Virus record (IMG/VR): IMGVR_UViG_3300040960_000077
Span: 1 to 23,751 of that record
Direction: 5' to 3' (one strand)
Source of the DNA: a virus
Length of the DNA stretch: 23,751 nt
The notes beneath the pieces were generated by a model. It was not told the origin of the DNA and searched no databases. It saw nothing but the letters and a program-made list of their open reading frames with translations. Numbering within the stretch: position 1 is the stretch's first letter; every line of letters starts with the position of its first letter. The position numbers were made by a program, and so were the translations under genes. This document shows positions 7,898 through 14,078 of this stretch, one piece after another.

Positions 7898-7930
7898 GTA
7901 TATATACACATAGCTGTAACTTTTAGTTTT

Positions 7931-7950
7931 TATCTTATACGGGAACCTTA
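7931..7950 (-). promoter_or_regulatory. Candidate phage RNA polymerase promoter motif, copy 1 (leftward)
   Basis: Read on the minus strand, the 20 bases are TAAGGTTCCCGTATAAGATA. This differs by one base from copy 2 (8264-8283, plus strand) and by three from copy 3 upstream of the RNA polymerase gene. It points back into the lysozyme/terL end, divergent from copy 2. It could be an origin-type or antisense promoter, or a protein-binding site at the genome end. Confidence 0.5.
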
Positions 7951-8263: not shown

Positions 8264-8283
8264 TAAGGTACCCGTATAAGATA
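8264..8283 (+). promoter_or_regulatory. Candidate phage RNA polymerase promoter motif, copy 2
   Basis: TAAGGTACCCGTATAAGATA, followed by TATAAACAAAGG. It matches copy 1 at 19 of 20 positions and shares TAAGGT-CCC-TA with copy 3. Pointing toward the early genes, it would be placed like the leftmost phage promoter (phi-OL) of T7. Confidence 0.55.
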
Positions 8284-8346
8284 TAAACAAAGGTTTACAC
8301 ACTATGTGTATAGTATAGGTATTAATAAGGATGTATGTATACACTG

Positions 8347-8405
8347 GGTATACTTAGGGTAATACTTAGGTCTATACTTAGGTCTATACTTAGGTCTATA
8401 CTTAG
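8347..8405. repeat. 12-base tandem repeat, five units
   Basis: Three perfect copies of GTCTATACTTAG (8370-8381, 8382-8393, 8394-8405) are preceded by two diverged copies (8347-8357 and 8358-8369). On the opposite strand each unit reads CTAAGTATAGAC, and the joined copies contain CCTAAGT. T7 carries arrays of CCTAAAG-type short repeats beside its terminal repeat, so this array is a candidate functional equivalent, either in concatemer processing or as iteron-like protein sites. Confidence 0.85.
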
Positions 8406-8431
8406 GTATGCTGTGTGTATGTACTTACTTA

Positions 8432-8477: not shown

Positions 8478-8757
8478 CTAGTCATGCATATGATGCATAG
8501 CTGTTATGCAAAAATAACATTACTAATCATTTTTTATACATGTACACAGACAATATGTTTAATTTTTTAAAATTTTTTCAAGTGCTAACAACAGTGACAG
8601 AAGGTTTAAGCTATGATTTTAAAAAGTTTCTGACAGCCTCAGAAGCATAGAGGTTACACGGGTGTGACAGCCCCAAATAAGTCGGACACCGCAACAGTAG
8701 AGATACGCGCCGGTCTAGCGCTTCAGTGTGATTGCTTGAGCCAGTACAAACAAACCA

Positions 8758-8814
8758 TTGTTTGTCTCATATTATTAATATGACTGATGAGCTACAGAAT
8801 AGCGAAACAAACAA
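8758..8814 (+). ncRNA. Hammerhead ribozyme 1 (type III)
   Basis: All conserved parts are present. Stem III (open) is TTGTTTG (8758-8764) with CAAACAA (8808-8814), 7 pairs. The cleavage triplet is GTC (8764-8766), with predicted cut after C8766. Stem I is TCATATT (8767-8773) with AATATGA (8777-8783), 7 pairs and a 3-base loop. The core is CTGATGA (8784-8790). Stem II is GCT/AGC (8791-8793, 8801-8803) with a 7-base loop. GAAA is at 8804-8807. It sits in the leader of the first early gene, whose ATG is at 8828. After cutting, the downstream mRNA would start with a 5'-OH and the stem I hairpin. Confidence 0.92.
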
Positions 8815-8824
8815 ACTGAGGTTA
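8808..8824 (+). repeat. Leader repeat CAAACAAACTGAGGTTA, copy 1
   Basis: These 17 bases recur exactly at 9161-9177. They run from the 3' strand of ribozyme 1 stem III into the ribosome binding site (GAGG, 8818-8821) of the gene at 8828. Related (CAAA)n plus AAAGGAT leaders follow ribozymes 3 and 4 (9741-9760 and 10242-10257). These look like a standard unstructured translation-initiation module placed after each ribozyme. Confidence 0.85.
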
Positions 8825-8827
8825 ACT

Positions 8828-9070
8828 ATGAATAAACAAGATTTAAAAAAATTAATTATTAACAAGATTAAAAAAGCTAATGCTGTTTATGTACATAACA
8901 GCTTTACTGAGTTTTACTTTAAAACATCTAAAAGTGACTTGCTACACACTTTTAGAGAACAATACAAAAACAGCAACAGACCTGAAAATCAATTAAGCTT
9001 GTTAGAATGGCTTAAAGATTTCAACGACAGAGCAACACTAACTGATAGCAACAATTTAATGTTTGATTAA
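8828..9070 (+). CDS. Early protein of unknown function (80 residues)
   Basis: The start is the ATG at 8828, seven bases after GAGG. The frame stays open upstream to 8732, but that part is ribozyme 1, so the longer start is rejected. The product (MNKQDLKKLIINKIKKANAV, then HNSFTEFYFKTSKSD, then RPENQLSLLEWLKDF) is basic, soluble and probably helical. As the first gene of the early region it is placed like the host-takeover proteins of T7 (gp0.3-0.7), but nothing in the sequence tells its target. Confidence 0.72.
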   Translation: MNKQDLKKLIINKIKKANAVYVHNSFTEFYFKTSKSDLLHTFREQYKNSNRPENQLSLLEWLKDFNDRATLTDSNNLMFD

Positions 9071-9081
9071 ATGACTTGACG

Positions 9082-9101
9082 GCGGCGTCTCAGGGCGCCG
9101 C
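9082..9101 (+). promoter_or_regulatory. GC-rich hairpin directly 5' of ribozyme 2
   Basis: GCGGCG (9082-9087) pairs with CGCCGC (9096-9101) across an 8-base loop, with a possible extra G-T pair. It ends exactly where ribozyme 2 begins. After ribozyme cutting at 9109 this hairpin would sit eight bases from the new 3' end of the upstream mRNA and could protect it from 3' exonucleases. It may also isolate the ribozyme fold from the upstream RNA. Confidence 0.6.
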
Positions 9102-9156
9102 TTGCTGTCTGGCGCTGTGAGCGTCACTGATGAGCTTTAAAAAAGCGAAACAGCAA
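9102..9156 (+). ncRNA. Hammerhead ribozyme 2 (type III)
   Basis: Stem III is TTGCTG (9102-9107) with CAGCAA (9151-9156), 6 pairs. The cleavage triplet is GTC (9107-9109), with cut after C9109. Stem I is TGGCGC (9110-9115) with GCGTCA (9121-9126), 6 pairs including one G-T, and a 5-base loop. The core is CTGATGA (9127-9133). Stem II is GCTTT/AAAGC (9134-9138, 9142-9146) with loop AAA. GAAA is at 9147-9150. All three stems differ in sequence from ribozyme 1 yet still pair. It lies in the 112-base gap between the genes at 8828 and 9182. Confidence 0.92.
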
Positions 9157-9160
9157 CATA

Positions 9161-9177
9161 CAAACAAACTGAGGTTA
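9161..9177 (+). repeat. Leader repeat CAAACAAACTGAGGTTA, copy 2
   Basis: An exact repeat of 8808-8824, ending just before the ATG at 9182 and supplying its ribosome binding site (GAGG, 9171-9174). Here it lies outside the ribozyme, whereas in copy 1 its first half is part of stem III. Confidence 0.85.
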
Positions 9178-9181
9178 TAAC

Positions 9182-9349
9182 ATGGTAAAACAAATAAAAG
9201 CTATAAAAGCTATATTAACACAAAATCAAGCGGATAAGTTTAAAGACAGTGTTAACAAAGCAACTTTTTTAGCAAACTATGCTAAAGAAAAAGACAGAGT
9301 TAAAAAAATTGAGATGCTTAGAGAAGCGGCTCAGGAAGGATGGATATAA
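9182..9349 (+). CDS. Early protein of unknown function (55 residues)
   Basis: Too short for simple length cut-offs, but it has a good GAGG site eight bases ahead and an uninterrupted frame. The product (MVKQIKAIKAILTQNQADKF, then FLANYAKEKDRVKKIEML, ending EAAQEGWI) is basic and predicted wholly helical. Two imperfect repeats KAIKAI mark the N-terminus. Its end overlaps a possible start of the next gene. No family is recognised. Confidence 0.65.
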   Translation: MVKQIKAIKAILTQNQADKFKDSVNKATFLANYAKEKDRVKKIEMLREAAQEGWI

Positions 9350-9354
9350 TTAAT

Positions 9355-9666
9355 ATGGATATTGCACAAATTAATTTCCCAATAAATGACAATGACGGCG
9401 CTAAACTTATGGCGCCGTTGTTAATTCAAAAAGAGTTATGCAAACAGTTTGGCGGCTGTACAGCATATGACGGCGCCGGCTCATGGATTAATGACAATGG
9501 CAAGTTATACGCTGAGCCTGTTAAGATTATACAAACAGCCTTTAAAAATAATTCTAAGAATAGATTGTTTTTAAAAAACTTAGTTAAGAAATACGGCAAA
9601 CTATCCAAACAAGAAGCGGTTTATTTGTCTATTAATAACAAGGCTAATATAATTAATATTAAGTAA
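9355..9666 (+). CDS. Early protein of unknown function (about 103 residues)
   Basis: An AGGAAGG site (9333-9339) abuts an ATG at 9340, too close to use it, and lies 15 bases from an in-frame ATG at 9355, so I prefer 9355; 9340 is possible. The product has a recognisable core, FGGCTAYDGAGSWINDNGK followed by EPVKII. This resembles a loosely defined phage/plasmid family with a GGxT...GxW...G...E pattern of unknown role. The TAA stop (9664-9666) lies inside stem I of ribozyme 3, so translation and ribozyme folding compete for the same RNA. Confidence 0.7.
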   Translation: MDIAQINFPINDNDGAKLMAPLLIQKELCKQFGGCTAYDGAGSWINDNGKLYAEPVKIIQTAFKNNSKNRLFLKNLVKKYGKLSKQEAVYLSINNKANIINIK

Positions 9667-9728
9667 CACTGATGAGCTGTTATTCAGCGAAACTAGGCGG
9701 CGCTTTACTTTGCCGCTTAGTCTGTTAC
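9663..9728 (+). ncRNA. Hammerhead ribozyme 3 (type I)
   Basis: Stem I (open) is GTAACA (9663-9668) with TGTTAC (9723-9728), 6 pairs. The core is CTGATGA (9669-9675). Stem II is GCTG/CAGC (9676-9679, 9685-9688) with a 5-base loop. GAAA is at 9689-9692. Stem III is CTAGGCGGC (9693-9701) with GCCGCTTAG (9712-9720), 9 pairs including one G-T, and a 10-base loop. The cleavage triplet is GTC (9720-9722), with cut after C9722. The upstream mRNA would keep nearly the whole ribozyme as a folded 3' end. It shares stem I with ribozyme 5 while stems II and III differ with compensating changes. Confidence 0.95.
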
Positions 9729-9740
9729 AATAACGTAACA

Positions 9741-9760
9741 CAAACAAACAAACAAAGGAT
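9741..9760 (+). repeat. (CAAA)n AAAGGAT leader after ribozyme 3
   Basis: Repeated CAAA units ending in AAAGGAT supply the ribosome binding site for the ATG at 9765. A nearly identical leader occurs at 10242-10257 after ribozyme 4, and AAAGGATAACT precedes the ATG at 11022 after ribozyme 5. These A/C-rich stretches should stay unpaired, leaving initiation sites free of the structured ribozymes. Confidence 0.75.
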
Positions 9761-9764
9761 GATT

Positions 9765-10133
9765 ATGTCATTACAAAAACAATATCTAAGAAGTACTAAA
9801 AATTTATATAGCTGTGTCTCAAACGGCGTAACAGTTTATTATTCATACGTGACGCCTGTGGCTATTAAAGACCCGTTCAACGTGTTGCATGTGTGTGAGA
9901 ATGTCTGGTCAGTTACGACTGGGCGTCACTTAACATGGATTGACGGCGGCACACCTGAAGCTAAAAAGAAGCGTTTAAGTTATGCTGACTTTCAAAAACT
10001 TAAAGACATTTACGGCGTTGAACGTGAATACTGGTTAAACTCAAGTTATATTAGACCAAAGACAGACACTGTACCGGACATTATAAAATTTGATGAGATG
10101 TTACCGGACAGATTACAATTGTTAAAAATATAA
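9765..10133 (+). CDS. Early protein of unknown function (122 residues)
   Basis: I chose the ATG at 9765, six bases after AAGG. The frame is open back to 9672, but that ATG is in the ribozyme core, so the longer start is rejected. The product has a compact core, VTVYYSYVTPVAI, then VCENVWSVTTGRHLTWID. This pattern (YSYxTPxA...NxWSxTTGxHL) is one I associate with small phage proteins of unknown function. It is soluble with no membrane segment. It is flanked on both sides by ribozymes, so it would be released as a single-gene mRNA of about 457 bases. Confidence 0.75.
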   Translation: MSLQKQYLRSTKNLYSCVSNGVTVYYSYVTPVAIKDPFNVLHVCENVWSVTTGRHLTWIDGGTPEAKKKRLSYADFQKLKDIYGVEREYWLNSSYIRPKTDTVPDIIKFDEMLPDRLQLLKI

Positions 10134-10144
10134 TAATAAACACA

Positions 10145-10207
10145 GAGCGAAACAGGGCGCACACCTCAGGCGCCTTGTCTCACCGTTACGCGGTGACTGA
10201 TGAGCTC
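10145..10207 (+). ncRNA. Hammerhead ribozyme 4 (type II, circularly permuted)
   Basis: The order of parts is rotated. Stem II is open, GAGC (10145-10148) with GCTC (10204-10207). GAAA is at 10149-10152. Stem III is CAGGGCGC (10153-10160) with GCGCCTTG (10170-10177), 8 pairs including one G-T, and a 9-base loop. The cleavage triplet is GTC (10177-10179), with cut after C10179. Stem I is TCACCG (10180-10185) with CGGTGA (10191-10196), 6 pairs and a 5-base loop. The core is CTGATGA (10197-10203). The open stem has only four pairs and does not extend cleanly, so activity may be weaker. Cutting would leave a hairpin at the 3' end upstream and another at the 5' end downstream. Confidence 0.87.
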
Positions 10208-10241
10208 ACTATAGACTAGACGGCGCGTTGTTATCAGTAAA

Positions 10242-10257
10242 CAAACAAACAAAGGAT
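10242..10257 (+). repeat. (CAAA)n AAAGGAT leader after ribozyme 4
   Basis: CAAACAAACAAAGGAT, shared with the leader after ribozyme 3, provides the ribosome binding site for the start at 10262. There are 34 bases between the end of ribozyme 4 and this repeat. Confidence 0.75.
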
Positions 10258-10261
10258 GTAT

Positions 10262-10396
10262 ATGAATATGATATATAAAATAATATATAATTATTTACAT
10301 GCTAAAAAATTGGCTGAAGAAGAAGCCTTTAGAAATAAAAGATTAGCTGTACGTAATAGACTAAACGGCGGATATTATACGAAGGCGGGTCATTAA
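10262..10396 (+). CDS. Early small protein of unknown function (44 residues)
   Basis: AAAGG at 10251-10255 favours the ATG at 10262; in-frame ATGs at 10256 and 10268 are alternatives. The product (MNMIYKIIYNYLHAKKLAEE, then EAFRNKRLAVRNRL, ending GGYYTKAGH) is basic and helical at first, with aromatic residues in a possible membrane-surface helix. The stop abuts the next ATG with no gap. No family is recognised. Confidence 0.62.
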   Translation: MNMIYKIIYNYLHAKKLAEEEAFRNKRLAVRNRLNGGYYTKAGH

Positions 10397-10702
10397 ATGC
10401 CAAATGTAGTAATATCTAATTTTATCAACGATAAATGGGTTGATAGGATATATATGGCGTTTAATAAAACACCGTATCTGTTAAAACCTGACGGCACAAT
10501 AGAAAATTGTAAGATTAAAAAAGTTAAATCTAAGTACTTTTTAACAAGTACTGGTAAATGGTTTAATAATTCTGGTCTTAGGATTGACGAACCGGCGGGT
10601 ATTGATATAAATGCTGAGCGTAGTAAATTTCAGGCTGAGTTAAAACAGGCTGAATTTGACGCTAAATTTAACAAACTAAAACAAACAATAAGAGGTAATT
10701 AA
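10397..10702 (+). CDS. Early protein of unknown function (101 residues)
   Basis: Starts immediately after the preceding stop; GAAGGCGGG (10381-10389) may act as the ribosome binding site. The N-terminal part (VVISNFINDKWVDRIYMAF, KPDGTIENCKIKKV) looks like a small beta domain. The C-terminal third (AERSKFQAELKQAEFDAKF) is a charged helix. No membrane segment. Part of a three-gene unit between ribozymes 4 and 5. No family is recognised. Confidence 0.72.
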   Translation: MPNVVISNFINDKWVDRIYMAFNKTPYLLKPDGTIENCKIKKVKSKYFLTSTGKWFNNSGLRIDEPAGIDINAERSKFQAELKQAEFDAKFNKLKQTIRGN

Positions 10703-10703
10703 T

Positions 10704-10931
10704 ATGTATATTGAGATGTCTAACTTAAAAATCACTGAAATTGAAACTAAACACGGTGAGCGTAAAAAGGGTAAATGGGTTGATTATAAAAAACCTATTG
10801 AAACACCAAAAGTTGTATTTGAGGATGAATATACAAATTTAATGGATGTTGCCTCAGAAATAAAACACGCCGCACAGCGTAGCCCACAAAATAAAATAAT
10901 TGTTACGTTTGAAGTTAACGCTGAGTGGTAA
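10704..10931 (+). CDS. Early protein of unknown function (75 residues)
   Basis: AGAGG (10691-10695) sits eight bases before this ATG. An internal ATG at 10716 is less well placed. The product (MYIEMSNLKITEIETKHGER, then KGKWVDYKKPIETPKVVF, ending NKIIVTFEVNAEW) looks like a small alpha/beta protein ending in a beta strand. Its stop is three bases upstream of ribozyme 5. No function is recognised. Confidence 0.72.
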   Translation: MYIEMSNLKITEIETKHGERKKGKWVDYKKPIETPKVVFEDEYTNLMDVASEIKHAAQRSPQNKIIVTFEVNAEW

Positions 10932-10933
10932 TA

Positions 10934-10996
10934 GTAACACTGATGAGCTCTCACTGAGCGAAACTAGAGCCGGTATATCCGGCTTTAGTCTGTTAC
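10934..10996 (+). ncRNA. Hammerhead ribozyme 5 (type I)
   Basis: Stem I (open) is GTAACA (10934-10939) with TGTTAC (10991-10996). The core is CTGATGA (10940-10946). Stem II is GCTC/GAGC (10947-10950, 10956-10959) with a 5-base loop. GAAA is at 10960-10963. Stem III is CTAGAGCCGG (10964-10973) with CCGGCTTTAG (10979-10988), 10 pairs including one G-T, and loop TATAT. The cleavage triplet is GTC (10988-10990), with cut after C10990. Relative to ribozyme 3, stem II changed GCTG/CAGC to GCTC/GAGC and most of stem III was replaced while pairing was kept. It lies in the gap before the gene at 11022. Confidence 0.95.
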
Positions 10997-11021: not shown

Positions 11022-11249
11022 ATGATTGAACTATTTATGGAATTGCCATTAGAAGGGCAAGTAATAATACTAGGCGGCGTTGTTTGTGGTCTTATTTTTA
11101 CGTTAAAAGAAAATAATACACACAATAAAAATGCTGATACTATTAATCCGTTTGCTTTAAGTACTAGACTAGACGGCAAGACAATCAAACAAATACAAGA
11201 GGCTAATAAAAATGACAGACAAAGAACAAATACAACATCTAATAGATAA
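11022..11249 (+). CDS. Small membrane protein of unknown function (75 residues)
   Basis: AAAGGATA (about 11011-11018) precedes the ATG. A hydrophobic helix spans about residues 10-28 (EGQVIILGGVVCGLIFTL), with a short negative N-terminus. A polar, Asn/Lys-rich tail of about 45 residues follows. This is a single-span inner-membrane layout. It overlaps the next gene by 38 bases in another frame. It is the first gene after ribozyme 5 and on the same RNA as the polymerase gene unless terminated. No family is recognised. Confidence 0.68.
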   Translation: MIELFMELPLEGQVIILGGVVCGLIFTLKENNTHNKNADTINPFALSTRLDGKTIKQIQEANKNDRQRTNTTSNR

Positions 11250-11574
11250 AAATAATAAGTTAGAAGCTGAGCTTATATCTTTAAAAACTAAAGTTACTGG
11301 TTGGTTTGAGGATATGGCTGAGTTAAGAAATACAGTGTTATTGCGAAACAGTGAGCTTAAACAATACAAAGATGTACATGTTAACTGGGAGCTTAAAAAG
11401 AAAATCATATTGTTTTTACAAAAGACACAGTCTTTAGAAGCTTATGATGCAATGACACCAAACCAAATAGCACACAGGGCAGCTACGTTTATTGAAAAAA
11501 TACTAGGTTCAAAACAACCGCCTTTATTAGCTATTACTAATGAAGTTCAAGTTACTACTAGGGAGCCTGACTAA
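11212..11574 (+). CDS. Coiled-coil early protein of unknown function (120 residues)
   Basis: AAGAGG (about 11196-11201) lies upstream. The first 60 residues are a clear heptad-type helix (IQHLIDKNNKLEAELISLK), suggesting dimerisation. A second part (KKKIILFLQKTQSLEAYDAM, then TPNQIAHRAATFIEKIL) is helical, and the tail is extended. It is the last gene before the RNA polymerase gene and is separated from it by a candidate promoter. No function is recognised. Confidence 0.72.
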   Translation: MTDKEQIQHLIDKNNKLEAELISLKTKVTGWFEDMAELRNTVLLRNSELKQYKDVHVNWELKKKIILFLQKTQSLEAYDAMTPNQIAHRAATFIEKILGSKQPPLLAITNEVQVTTREPD

Positions 11575-11630: not shown

Positions 11631-14078
11631 ATGGCAAGACTGATTGAGAGTATGCCTACTTATAAAGATGAAGTAGAGCATGAAAAAGAGATGAGGAATT
11701 TAGGTTCTAATAGGACTAATAAAAGACTTCAATCTCATGTAGAACGAGAAGAAGAAAGTGTTACTAGTTACGGGAAAATAATGGTAGCAAACACTATAAG
11801 ACCTTTAGCAAAAGCTATTGCTGAATGGGTAGAGGAACAATCACAAAAAACAATAGGTAAACCATCTATTGCCTTCCTGAAAATGTGTGAAGTAGAACCT
11901 GAAATATTAGCTTTAATTACTGGTAAACACATAATCAATACAATTACACAATACAAACCATTAACCGCAACGTGCATATCATTGGGCGGTAAAGTTGAAA
12001 CTGAAATTAGTCTTAGAAATTTTAAATTTTTAAATCCTGATTTGTACCAAACAGTTAAACAAGATTTAGATAAAAGAAGTTTTAACTACACTTACAAAAG
12101 AAGAAAACTAAGAGAAAGTGCTAAGCGTGATGAGGTGATGAAATGGGAAGAATGGAGTACACCTGTTAAATTACATGTAGGACTTAGATTAGTTGAGCTT
12201 ATGATTTATGCTACAGGTTTAATTGAGATAAGCACAGAGACTGTAAAACATAAAAAAGCTAAAATCATAAAACAAACAGAGACTACTAGAGAATGGATTA
12301 AGAATAGAAATAGTTTTAATGAATTACTTAATCCTGAATACTTACCGACAGTTATGCCGCCGAAGTTATGGAGTACAGTTGTAGGTGGTGGCTATTGGAC
12401 TAAAGAGTTGCCTGAGCTTGAGCTTGTTAAACAAAAAAACAAGAAATACAAAAAAGAGTTAGAAAACTATGACATGCCTGAAGTGTATGATGCTGTTAAT
12501 ACTATGCAGGCTACACCGTTTAAGATTAACACATTTATTTTACGTGTTATGCAGGAAGCGTGGGACAAAGGGTTAGCTGTTGGTGGTATGCCACCTAACA
12601 CTAATTATGATATTCCAAACAAACCACATGACATTGAAACTAATGTTGAAAGTAGAAGAGACTGGAAAAGAAAAGCTGTAATGGCTCACACAGAAAATGC
12701 TAGAATGTTTTCTAAACGTTTACTGTATGCTAAAATTATATGGCTTGCACAAAAGTTTAAAGATTATGCAACGTTATATTTTCCATTGCAATTAGACTTT
12801 AGAGGCAGAGCTTATTGTGTGCCGGCGTTTTTAAACTATCAGTCTATTGGTGGTGCTAAAGCTTTATTGTCTTTTGCACAAGGTAAAGCAATCACAAAAG
12901 AAAACAAAGGTGATTACTGGTTAGCTGTGCATGGTGCCAACATGTACGGTCAAGATAAAATATCTTTTAGTGACCGTGTTAAATGGACTGAGGATAATGA
13001 AGCTTGGATTATAAAATGTGCTGAAGACCCAATGTCAAATAGACAATGGGAAGATGCATCTAATCCATTTCAATTTTTATCTTTTTGTGATGAATGGAAA
13101 AGATTTAAAGAACAAGGATATGGATTTGTCTCTCATATACCTGTGAACGTAGACGGTTCTTGTAATGGTCTACAGATTTATTCTTTAATGTTAAGAGACA
13201 GTAAAGCAGGTAAGTTAGTTAATTGTTTACCTAGTGATACACCACAAGACATTTACCAATTAGTTGCTAATGCAGTTATTGAGAAATTAAAAAAAGATGC
13301 AGCAGAAAATAAACCTTTTGCTCAGTTGTGGTTAGACTATGGAGTTAAACGTTCAACTACTAAAAGAAGTATTATGACTATCTGTTATGGTTCAACTAGA
13401 TATTCATGTACAGACTTTGTAATTGAAGACTTAACTAAACGTAAAGACAAAGGTGAAAACCATCCATTTCAAGATGAGATATTCAAACCGGCTAGTTATC
13501 TAGCGTCTGTCATATGGGACAGTATTGGTGATAATTTGAAGTCTGCAAGAATTGGTATGGATTACTTACAAACCATTGCTAGGATAGTTGCTAAAGAACA
13601 ACTTCCAGTGCACTGGGTAACACCTGTTGGCTTTCCTGTTTATCAGTCATATCCTGAGATGAAGTCTAAAAGAGTTAAAGCTATGTTGATGGGTGAAGTT
13701 ATCAAACCTAGAATTAACACAGAGACTGACTTGACGGACAAGTTGAGAATGGGCAATGGAGTGGCTCCTAATGTTGTTCACTCAGTAGACAGTGCCGCTA
13801 TGATGAAAACTGTTAACACTGCATACAAAAATGGTATTACTAATTTTTGTAACGTGCATGATAGTTTTGGCACAACAGCCGGTGATGTTGAAACACTTAA
13901 TAAATCTATTAGAGAAGCTTTTATTGAGATGTTTACTAAGAATGACATACTAGAAGATTTTAGAAATGACGTTCTTAGACAATTACCATTAGAGTTACAC
14001 GACAAATTACCTGAAGCTCCCGCCAAAGGTGATTTGGATATTCAACAATTGCGGGACAGTGAGTTCTTTTTTGCATAG
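11631..14078 (+). CDS. T7-like DNA-directed RNA polymerase (single subunit)
   Basis: 815 residues (T7 gp1 is 883). It transcribes the middle and late phage genes from phage promoters. Motifs in order: DFRGRAYCVPAF; VDGSCNGLQIYS with the metal-binding D508 (T7 D537); TTKRSIMTICYGS with K578 and Y586 (T7 K631 and Y639, same spacing); and NVHDSFGT with H743 and the second metal-binding D744 (T7 H811, D812). The C-terminus LRDSEFFFA matches the T7 ending DFAFA style that contributes to the active site. All catalytic residues are present, so the enzyme should be active. AAGGAG (11618-11623) precedes the ATG. The N-terminal and specificity-loop parts are diverged, so the promoter should differ from T7's. 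Confidence 0.98.
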   Translation: MARLIESMPTYKDEVEHEKEMRNLGSNRTNKRLQSHVEREEESVTSYGKIMVANTIRPLAKAIAEWVEEQSQKTIGKPSIAFLKMCEVEPEILALITGKHIINTITQYKPLTATCISLGGKVETEISLRNFKFLNPDLYQTVKQDLDKRSFNYTYKRRKLRESAKRDEVMKWEEWSTPVKLHVGLRLVELMIYATGLIEISTETVKHKKAKIIKQTETTREWIKNRNSFNELLNPEYLPTVMPPKLWSTVVGGGYWTKELPELELVKQKNKKYKKELENYDMPEVYDAVNTMQATPFKINTFILRVMQEAWDKGLAVGGMPPNTNYDIPNKPHDIETNVESRRDWKRKAVMAHTENARMFSKRLLYAKIIWLAQKFKDYATLYFPLQLDFRGRAYCVPAFLNYQSIGGAKALLSFAQGKAITKENKGDYWLAVHGANMYGQDKISFSDRVKWTEDNEAWIIKCAEDPMSNRQWEDASNPFQFLSFCDEWKRFKEQGYGFVSHIPVNVDGSCNGLQIYSLMLRDSKAGKLVNCLPSDTPQDIYQLVANAVIEKLKKDAAENKPFAQLWLDYGVKRSTTKRSIMTICYGSTRYSCTDFVIEDLTKRKDKGENHPFQDEIFKPASYLASVIWDSIGDNLKSARIGMDYLQTIARIVAKEQLPVHWVTPVGFPVYQSYPEMKSKRVKAMLMGEVIKPRINTETDLTDKLRMGNGVAPNVVHSVDSAAMMKTVNTAYKNGITNFCNVHDSFGTTAGDVETLNKSIREAFIEMFTKNDILEDFRNDVLRQLPLELHDKLPEAPAKGDLDIQQLRDSEFFFA

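Follow-up and report, generated by a model that had tools for sequence, protein, structure and literature searches.

A conserved serial array of hammerhead ribozymes in the early region of a T7-like Pelagivirus and its probable role in early-mRNA processing

The purpose of the hammerhead ribozyme clusters of phages has been a standing question since 2011, when Perreault et al. proposed that clustered prophage hammerheads cut long transcripts into gene-sized mRNAs (PMC3088659). The stretch of viral DNA analysed here (the window, 23.75 kb) raises the question in a phage with the same genome plan as T7, its best-known relative, where a host enzyme solves the equal problem. The contig belongs to Pelagivirus (Autographiviridae), and its RNA polymerase is 94.4% identical to that of Pelagibacter phage Eistla, which bears out the T7-like character given in the preliminary description. 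The genes of the early region are listed below; cuts are numbered as in the list of ribozymes that follows.

8828-9070, plus strand: early gene 1, 80 aa, without a family match, 3' of cut 1
9182-9349, plus strand: early gene 2, family D
9340-9666, plus strand: early gene 3, family B, DUF3574-like
9765-10133, plus strand: early gene 4, 122 aa, phrog_5643, function unknown
10256-10396, plus strand: early gene 5
10397-10702, plus strand: early gene 6
10704-10931, plus strand: early gene 7
11022-11574, plus strand: early genes 8 and 9 (families F and C), after cut 5, predicted to share an RNA with the RNA polymerase gene
11631-14078, plus strand: T7-type single-subunit RNA polymerase gene (PF00940, E 1e-108)

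The motif GACTWGACGG was considered as a phage promoter and dropped, as it occurs inside genes too. A polymerase search of bacterial genomes yielded a single phage-like contig, found within a metagenome-assembled genome, and no host genome.

Hammerheads were sought by a structural search that demanded the core CUGANGA and GAA, the A15.1-U16.1 pair, a nucleotide other than G at position 17 and three stems, in all three permutations and on both strands of the window. Exactly five matches were obtained, of types III, III, I, II and I, all on the coding strand between 8758 and 10996, and nothing else on either strand of the window qualified as a hammerhead.

8758-8814, plus strand: HHR1, type III hammerhead in the early leader, predicted cut after 8766 (GUC^UCA)
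9102-9156, plus strand: HHR2, type III hammerhead, predicted cut after 9109 (GUC^UGG)
9663-9728, plus strand: HHR3, type I hammerhead, predicted cut after 9722 (GUC^UGU)
10145-10207, plus strand: HHR4, type II hammerhead, predicted cut after 10179 (GUC^UCA)
10934-10996, plus strand: HHR5, type I hammerhead, predicted cut after 10990 (GUC^UGU)

The five elements and their cuts agree base for base with those proposed in the preliminary description, and its spacings and gene counts were also correct: the predicted cuts lie 343, 613, 457 and 811 nt apart and enclose 1, 2, 1 and 3 genes. Each element has the invariant core surrounded by three helices, in an arrangement that matches one of the three permutations. 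Only two matches, both with a score of 11 as against 19-20 for the real elements, appeared in 200 Markov-1 random windows searched on both strands. When each element was folded alone, the hammerhead was the minimum-energy structure in all five cases.

Detection by the general models of Rfam was weaker. For HHR1, HHR2 and HHR5 the best-matching library entries were RF00008 (Hammerhead_3) and RF03152 (RAGATH-1 hammerhead), which share the core and fold of our elements. RF00008 scored HHR2 at 44.4 bits (E 7e-8) and HHR1 at 39.5 bits against a gathering cut-off of 48.5, and RF03152 scored HHR5 at 30.4 bits against 56.3. Only three of the five elements were thus clearly detected, all below the gathering score. 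A gathering-level search of 120 kb from ten related loci likewise gave no hammerheads and only a tRNA, and we therefore built our own models from relatives. These models scored phages outside the training set at 46-78 bits; the model R3 scored HHR1 at 81.6 bits, a value for a window sequence that belonged to the training set. The sub-cut-off scores are explained by the tuning of the Rfam models to other hammerheads. We accordingly file the elements under the hammerhead catalytic class and not under RF00008 or RF03152, and regard the failure at the cut-offs as a detection limit of the models.

Pairing across the relatives gave the strongest evidence. In the aligned stems, 99.1% of the cells were paired for type I, 100% for type II and 95.5% for type III, compared with 27-46% for slid partners. 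Changes on both sides of a pair were found in 15 of 19 pairs (type I), 13 of 18 (type II) and 12 of 18 (type III), with an invariant core. Fast hammerhead cleavage involves a tertiary contact between stems I and II; as to loop II, most type III sequences kept the trinucleotide CAG. The preliminary description had named a covariance-model search as a check, and with the gathering cut-offs of Rfam the elements fell below threshold, an outcome it had named as refuting and which taken formally speaks against it; the scores of the relative-built models, and above all the covariation, which is decisive for the structure as judged from sequence, speak for it. That the elements are functionless look-alikes scoring by chance is scarcely credible. 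This reading can point to every element lying below the Rfam gathering cut-offs, but the negligible chance expectation and the covariation refute it as to structure. The hammerhead structures are real, and Mg2+-dependent self-cleavage is predicted from them; since the sites are hammerheads, RNA catalysis is to be expected.

The position of the elements was then considered. Every early gap of at least 80 nt in the window carries a hammerhead (one each in gaps of 111, 98, 122 and 90 nt), and the shorter gaps, of -38 to 56 nt, carry none. The claim that the ribozymes fall only in gaps before early genes holds for their confinement to the early region and needs correction in two places: HHR1 lies in the leader and not between two genes, and HHR3 overlaps the final 4 bases of gene 3 upstream of it, the stop codon of which sits in the 5' strand of stem I. 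Two genes lie between the last predicted cut and the RNA polymerase gene that follows. No strong hammerhead match was found downstream of the RNA polymerase gene, and none directly flanks it.

The same confinement was observed in dozens of relatives, which carry one to five hammerheads each, always on the coding strand and always 5' of the RNA polymerase gene. All strong matches in five complete Pelagivirus genomes were in the early region, on the coding strand and upstream of the RNA polymerase. Within the close clade the same type of hammerhead occupies the same boundary, as the preliminary description had proposed to check; the type II element at the HHR4 boundary, for example, is kept in close relatives. 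Between clades the types switch. Type II sites in which stem III is imperfect (L016, L017, L018 and L070) escaped the strict finder and were recovered by the covariance model, so that maps based on the finder undercount. Among T7-like pelagiphages the number ranges from 0 to 5, with none in the Votkovvirus phages HTVC200P and HTVC119P and one each in HTVC021P and HTVC022P. This range indicates that a T7-like cycle in this host does not depend on the array.

The gene cassettes between the hammerheads differ among clades. It is conceivable, therefore, that the elements mark recombination boundaries, early-gene cassettes travelling with a hammerhead whose RNA activity is secondary or decaying. 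The inconstant gene identities in the prophage clusters (PMC3088659) would fit this reading, as would HHR3 and HHR5, whose stem I strands are identical and which share a GTAACACTGATGAGCT start. However, compensatory changes maintain pairing despite sequence divergence, and the core letters are invariant, no core-breaking substitution being present in the aligned sets (the finder itself demands an intact core). In addition, the types swap at equivalent boundaries between clades, and in several relatives (L028, L030 and L039) the stems within one array are unlike one another, which is poor for homologous recombination and good for independent cleavage. We consider the recombination reading quite improbable.

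The identical stem I strands of HHR3 and HHR5 also allow a scheme in which cleavage is followed by re-ligation of the 5' end from one type I site to the 3' end from the other, the RNA 9723-10990 forming a hybrid ribozyme and a circular early RNA. This is very unlikely: HHR4 would cut the 9723-10990 segment, stem I sequences differ within one array in many relatives, and a 5'-terminal hairpin on the type I product, described below, would hinder the re-pairing that ligation requires by competing with it. Perreault et al. sought circular or spliced products and found none (PMC3088659).

We consider it likely that the array self-processes the Pelagivirus early transcript, in analogy to the RNase III cuts of T7. 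The five hammerheads would cut the polycistronic early RNA during its synthesis, giving a leader, then mRNAs of 1, 2, 1 and 3 genes and, with the RNA polymerase, one of 3 or more genes. As in T7, an early polycistron upstream of and around the RNA polymerase gene would be cut in the leader and between genes, and the mRNAs would have structured ends. The phage probably divides its early message by itself into separate mRNAs with protected ends, a task for which T7 uses a host enzyme, and the cutting would uncouple the expression of the cassettes, matching the role of RNase III cleavage in T7. Unlike in T7, the catalyst is expected to be the RNA itself. Hammerhead chemistry leaves a 2',3'-cyclic phosphate on the upstream product; each cut here would leave this end on the upstream mRNA and a 5'-OH on the downstream mRNA, whereas RNase III leaves a 5'-phosphate and a 3'-OH. 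In T7, early RNase III sites also flank the RNA polymerase gene closely on both sides. The parallel drawn in the preliminary description therefore stands as to discrete early mRNAs predicted from cuts in the leader and gaps of an Autographiviridae early region, and not as to cuts flanking the RNA polymerase gene.

The ends of the predicted products were analyzed further. By the layout of the element, the upstream RNA at types I and II would end with the stem III hairpin, and by construction the downstream RNA at types II and III would start with the stem I hairpin; HHR4 would provide both. At many type I sites, the 5' strand of stem I occurs once more further downstream, which would let the downstream RNA start with a hairpin as well. 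The example after cut 3 is the following.

9723-9740, plus strand: UGUUAC-AAUAAC-GUAACA, 5'-terminal hairpin of the product after predicted cut 3, in which the 3' strand of HHR3 stem I is used again

The 5'-terminal pairing of the type I downstream product was 0.76, compared with 0.50 in shuffles (28 clusters, P = 8e-7), in a test that controls for base composition and not for all relatedness. A strict 5'-terminal hairpin was present at 18 of 42 type I sites, as against 2.2 expected. An earlier test that allowed long loops and wobble pairs gave little signal; the stricter tests were positive. The hairpin is weak at the polymerase-proximal site, HHR5 included. By eye, the HHR3 loop UUAUU could pair with a downstream AAUAA; such a loop-flank pseudoknot was not seen in the other elements and is not claimed.

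Such terminal hairpins would guard the early mRNAs from RNase E/5'-end-dependent decay and from exonucleases. Pelagibacterales possess a short RNase E (PMC5436854). What the analysis shows are the structures, their covariation, their restriction to the early region, their conserved positions and the tendency to terminal hairpins; cleavage, stabilisation of the mRNAs, independence from host RNases and the replacement of RNase III by hammerheads we infer. A fuller version of this processing can be put forward only tentatively: the conserved serial array would replace RNase III by enzyme-free processing, every released mRNA would start with a 5'-OH hairpin, for which the type I sites would have gained the complement, and this cap would both protect the messages and drive the reaction forward.

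Folding in the native context complicates the two type III sites. The minimum-energy fold of both HHR1 and HHR2 is there an upstream alternative hairpin and not the hammerhead.

8747-8766, plus strand: alternative 8-bp hairpin ACAAACAAACCAUUGUUUGU, in which the 5' strand of stem III is paired anew, upstream of cut 1

This hairpin, present only in the Eistla/HTVC031P lineage, would in the folding model either close off the released leader at its 3' end or act as a rival to the HHR1 ribozyme. Because of this competition HHR1 and HHR2 may cut slowly or conditionally. The elements might then be conditional regulators, in which competing hairpins, upstream of type III and downstream of type I sites, switch cleavage on or off and so adjust the expression of certain early genes to time, ribosome load or conditions; the stem strands beside the cut do possess a second partner, and ribosomes could interfere at HHR3, which contains the upstream stop codon. 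Nevertheless we regard this as unlikely. An upstream hairpin, which would also have closed the 3' end of the upstream RNA at each type III cut, did not prove to be general among type III sites (Wilcoxon P = 0.28); for HHR4 the minimum-energy fold in context is still the hammerhead; and the alternative pairing on the product side is what a post-cleavage cap requires.

The preferred reading, self-processing of the early transcript, has precedents. The preliminary description knew of no serial array that serves early-mRNA processing, but transcript processing by phage hammerhead clusters is an idea known since 2011, and the present array is a variant of it. It resembles the clusters of Perreault et al., three of which cleave in vitro (PMC3088659), in having hammerheads of mixed type in series, with single genes or short gene blocks between them. 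Those clusters are prophage loci with inconstant genes, whereas the present array is dedicated to the early genes of a T7-like phage and occupies boundaries that stay fixed among close relatives, with up to five members, all three types and the product-end hairpin tendency at type I sites. The HHphage hammerhead of haloviruses HF1/HF2 precedes an early helicase gene (PMC3088659) and is similar in its place immediately ahead of an early gene in a lytic virus; it is a single variant hammerhead of an archaeal virus, unlike the array here. In the open-access literature, we found no paper tying hammerheads to pelagiphages or Autographiviridae.

The arrays, invisible at the curated cut-offs of Rfam, occur in cultured phages of Pelagibacter, among the most abundant bacteria of the ocean, and their predicted cut sites are exact. 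HTVC031P and Eistla have 3-4 predicted sites. At least one element, of type I (L218:2292-2365), is present in HTVC022P, a related phage for which stranded RNA-seq data from infection of HTCC1062 are public (PRJNA1253180), so that no new sampling is needed to test the question.

A purpose-written structural search of the window returned exactly five hammerheads, all on the + strand and all inside 8758-10996. The five cut sites named in the preliminary description were thus recovered independently.

8758-8814, + strand, type III hammerhead HHR1, predicted cut after 8766
9102-9156, + strand, type III hammerhead HHR2, predicted cut after 9109
9663-9728, + strand, type I hammerhead HHR3, predicted cut after 9722
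10145-10207, + strand, type II hammerhead HHR4, predicted cut after 10179
10934-10996, + strand, type I hammerhead HHR5, predicted cut after 10990

Each folds to a hammerhead when taken alone, and 200 random windows with the same dinucleotide make-up gave two poor matches. The early gaps with a hammerhead measure 111, 98, 122 and 90 nt, whereas those without one measure -10, 0, 1, -38 and 56 nt; this split is nearly identical in close relatives. In type I elements the cut precedes the next annotated start by 29-44 nt; the distance is 61-106 nt in type II elements and 67-72 nt in type III elements that lie between genes. An unstructured CAAACAAA-type spacer often separates the ribozyme from the ribosome-binding site.

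The window, a virus record of 23,751 bases, encodes an RNA polymerase that shares 94.4% identity with that of Pelagibacter phage Eistla EXVC025P and 91-92% with those of HTVC142P, HTVC031P and HTVC168P, all four phages being Pelagivirus, Autographiviridae. The tail genes come first, followed by maturase/terminase and lysozyme genes and a repeat-rich non-coding region. Nine small early genes then lead to the RNA polymerase gene, after which come genes for ssDNA-binding protein, endonuclease I, lysozyme, primase, DNA polymerase, exonuclease and ribonucleotide reductase. The non-coding region contains direct repeats of 12-bp period (8349-8408; TATACTTAGGTC) and a 36-nt inverted repeat (7915-7950 / 8264-8299), which are possibly related to a terminal repeat or an origin.

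A strict finder was applied to 80 IMG/VR loci that carry related polymerases and to eight cultured phages; it gave 148 hammerheads (84 type I, 31 type II, 33 type III; 96 distinct sequences) in 61 loci. Paired cells made up 99.1, 100 and 95.5% of the alignments A2-A4, respectively, values that are biased upward because the finder that selected the sequences itself demands pairing. The variety of pair types is not explained by this selection. Both sides changed in 15/19, 13/18 and 12/18 pairs, and pairing fell to 27-46% when the partner was slid by one to three columns. Phylogenetic dependence was handled by clustering and these slid controls alone.

The Rfam scores were 44.4 bits for HHR2, 39.5 for HHR1 and 30.4 for HHR5 (RAGATH-1), every one under the gathering score, and ten related loci (120 kb, some 20 hammerheads) gave no gathering-level Rfam hammerhead match. 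Sub-threshold covariance scores, proposed earlier as a refutation, were indeed obtained, but as a refutation they would mislead, since the gathering scores miss real hammerheads in relatives. Covariance models from A2-A4 were scanned over 466 kb, nine complete genomes among them. Every match above 45 bits was on the coding strand and upstream of the polymerase gene; this held also for HTVC022P, HTVC019P and the L100 contig, on which the models had not been trained. HTVC031P and HTVC109P have four hammerheads, Eistla and HTVC168P three, and HTVC142P two. The covariance models gave two in HTVC019P and one each in HTVC021P and HTVC022P, these three being scanned as linear records with wrap-round ends unjoined. 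The strict finder gave none in Votkovvirus HTVC200P and HTVC119P or Limnohabitans phage YIMV22061, and one in Roseobacter phage CRP-125. The CRP-125 element is a single type III hammerhead (L096:38163-38230) in a Roseobacter Autographiviridae phage with the gene order MarR-integrase-RNA polymerase; the A. tumefaciens array of Perreault is likewise listed with ardA, marR and integrase (PMC3088659). L100 (NZIV01000032.1) is Pelagivirus-like phage DNA, with an RNA polymerase 75% identical and hammerheads upstream of it, filed under a Neomarinimicrobiota metagenome-assembled genome; the contig is therefore probably misbinned. In HTVC109P, the annotated starts of two early genes (L087:589-816, L087:1121-1387) fall within hammerheads, and the deposited start codons are therefore probably too far upstream.

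In the Eistla/HTVC031P clade, each boundary between early-gene families (A-G) has one type: type III is used in the leader and ahead of D, type I between B and A, type II ahead of A-G-E, and type I again ahead of F-C, some members being without some of the sites. Sister clades have a different type at seemingly corresponding boundaries, which suggests that the predicted cut, rather than the permutation, is what is kept.

By construction, the stem III hairpin is the predicted 3' end of the upstream RNA for types I and II, and the stem I hairpin the predicted 5' end of the downstream RNA for types II and III. In type I, stem I is open, and the cut alone would give a single-stranded 5' end. Just after the type I ribozyme, however, the stem I 5' strand is often repeated, as in UGUUAC-AAUAAC-GUAACA, GUUGC-AUAA-GCAAC, UAUUGC-AUAC-GCAAUA and UGUCA-CACAA-UGACA, and the sequence of the repeated strand tracks the changes in stem I. 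Strict 5' end hairpins occur at 18 of the 42 distinct type I sites against 2.2 expected, and mean end pairing is 0.76 versus 0.50 (28 clusters, P = 8e-7). This tendency is distinct at internal sites but weak at the site nearest the polymerase gene, as in HHR5. At type III sites, a corresponding hairpin at the 3' end was found in the lineage of the window, but is no general rule.

A hammerhead cut yields a 5'-OH and a 2',3'-cyclic phosphate, and RNase E is the enzyme against which a 5'-OH and 5' hairpins would help. RNase E is present in Pelagibacterales (PMC5436854). From the structures, their conservation, place and strand, all shown here, we infer that the early RNA would be cut co-transcriptionally, giving a leader and end-protected mRNAs. 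The HTVC022P transcriptome, reported with no mention of ribozymes, has contiguous early genes and an early-expressed polymerase (PMC12753301), a pattern that fits an early operon.

In prophages, Perreault et al. 2011 (PMC3088659) described hammerheads of mixed types bordering genes or blocks of genes and proposed that they process transcripts. They observed that three arrays cleave in vitro and one in E. coli; no circular or spliced products were found. The Pelagivirus early array belongs to the same kind. Serial phage hammerheads and the processing idea were already known. The present case extends them to a T7-like phage genus, in which complete genomes show strict confinement to the early region and positions are conserved while types switch. 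The gap rule, the hairpin at the product end of type I sites and a direct comparison with the T7 RNase III scheme are further additions. The likeness to that scheme is only partial, because no hammerhead sites flank the Pelagivirus polymerase gene.

In a pattern scan of IMG/VR, the phage contigs L109, L173, L105 and L114 each carried a series of four to six hammerheads of type I, and no T7-type RNA polymerase was found in their fetched stretches. Judged from these predicted arrays, the serial arrangement is wider than the genus Pelagivirus. L173 comes from an 82.7 kb contig and encodes, by eye, ParB-, HNH- and PAPS-reductase-like proteins.

In the window, a near-GACTWGACGGC motif occurs at 9073, 10214, 10359 and 11167, in gaps and within genes alike, the copies at 10359 and 11167 being coding (RLNGG/RLDGK). 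With copies also inside genes, a promoter role is unsupported; the copies are perhaps traces of cassette exchange. The early protein of 46 aa encoded at 10256-10396 has the C-terminal end RLNGGYYTKAGH, and many relatives have short early proteins with the same GY..KAGH C-terminus.
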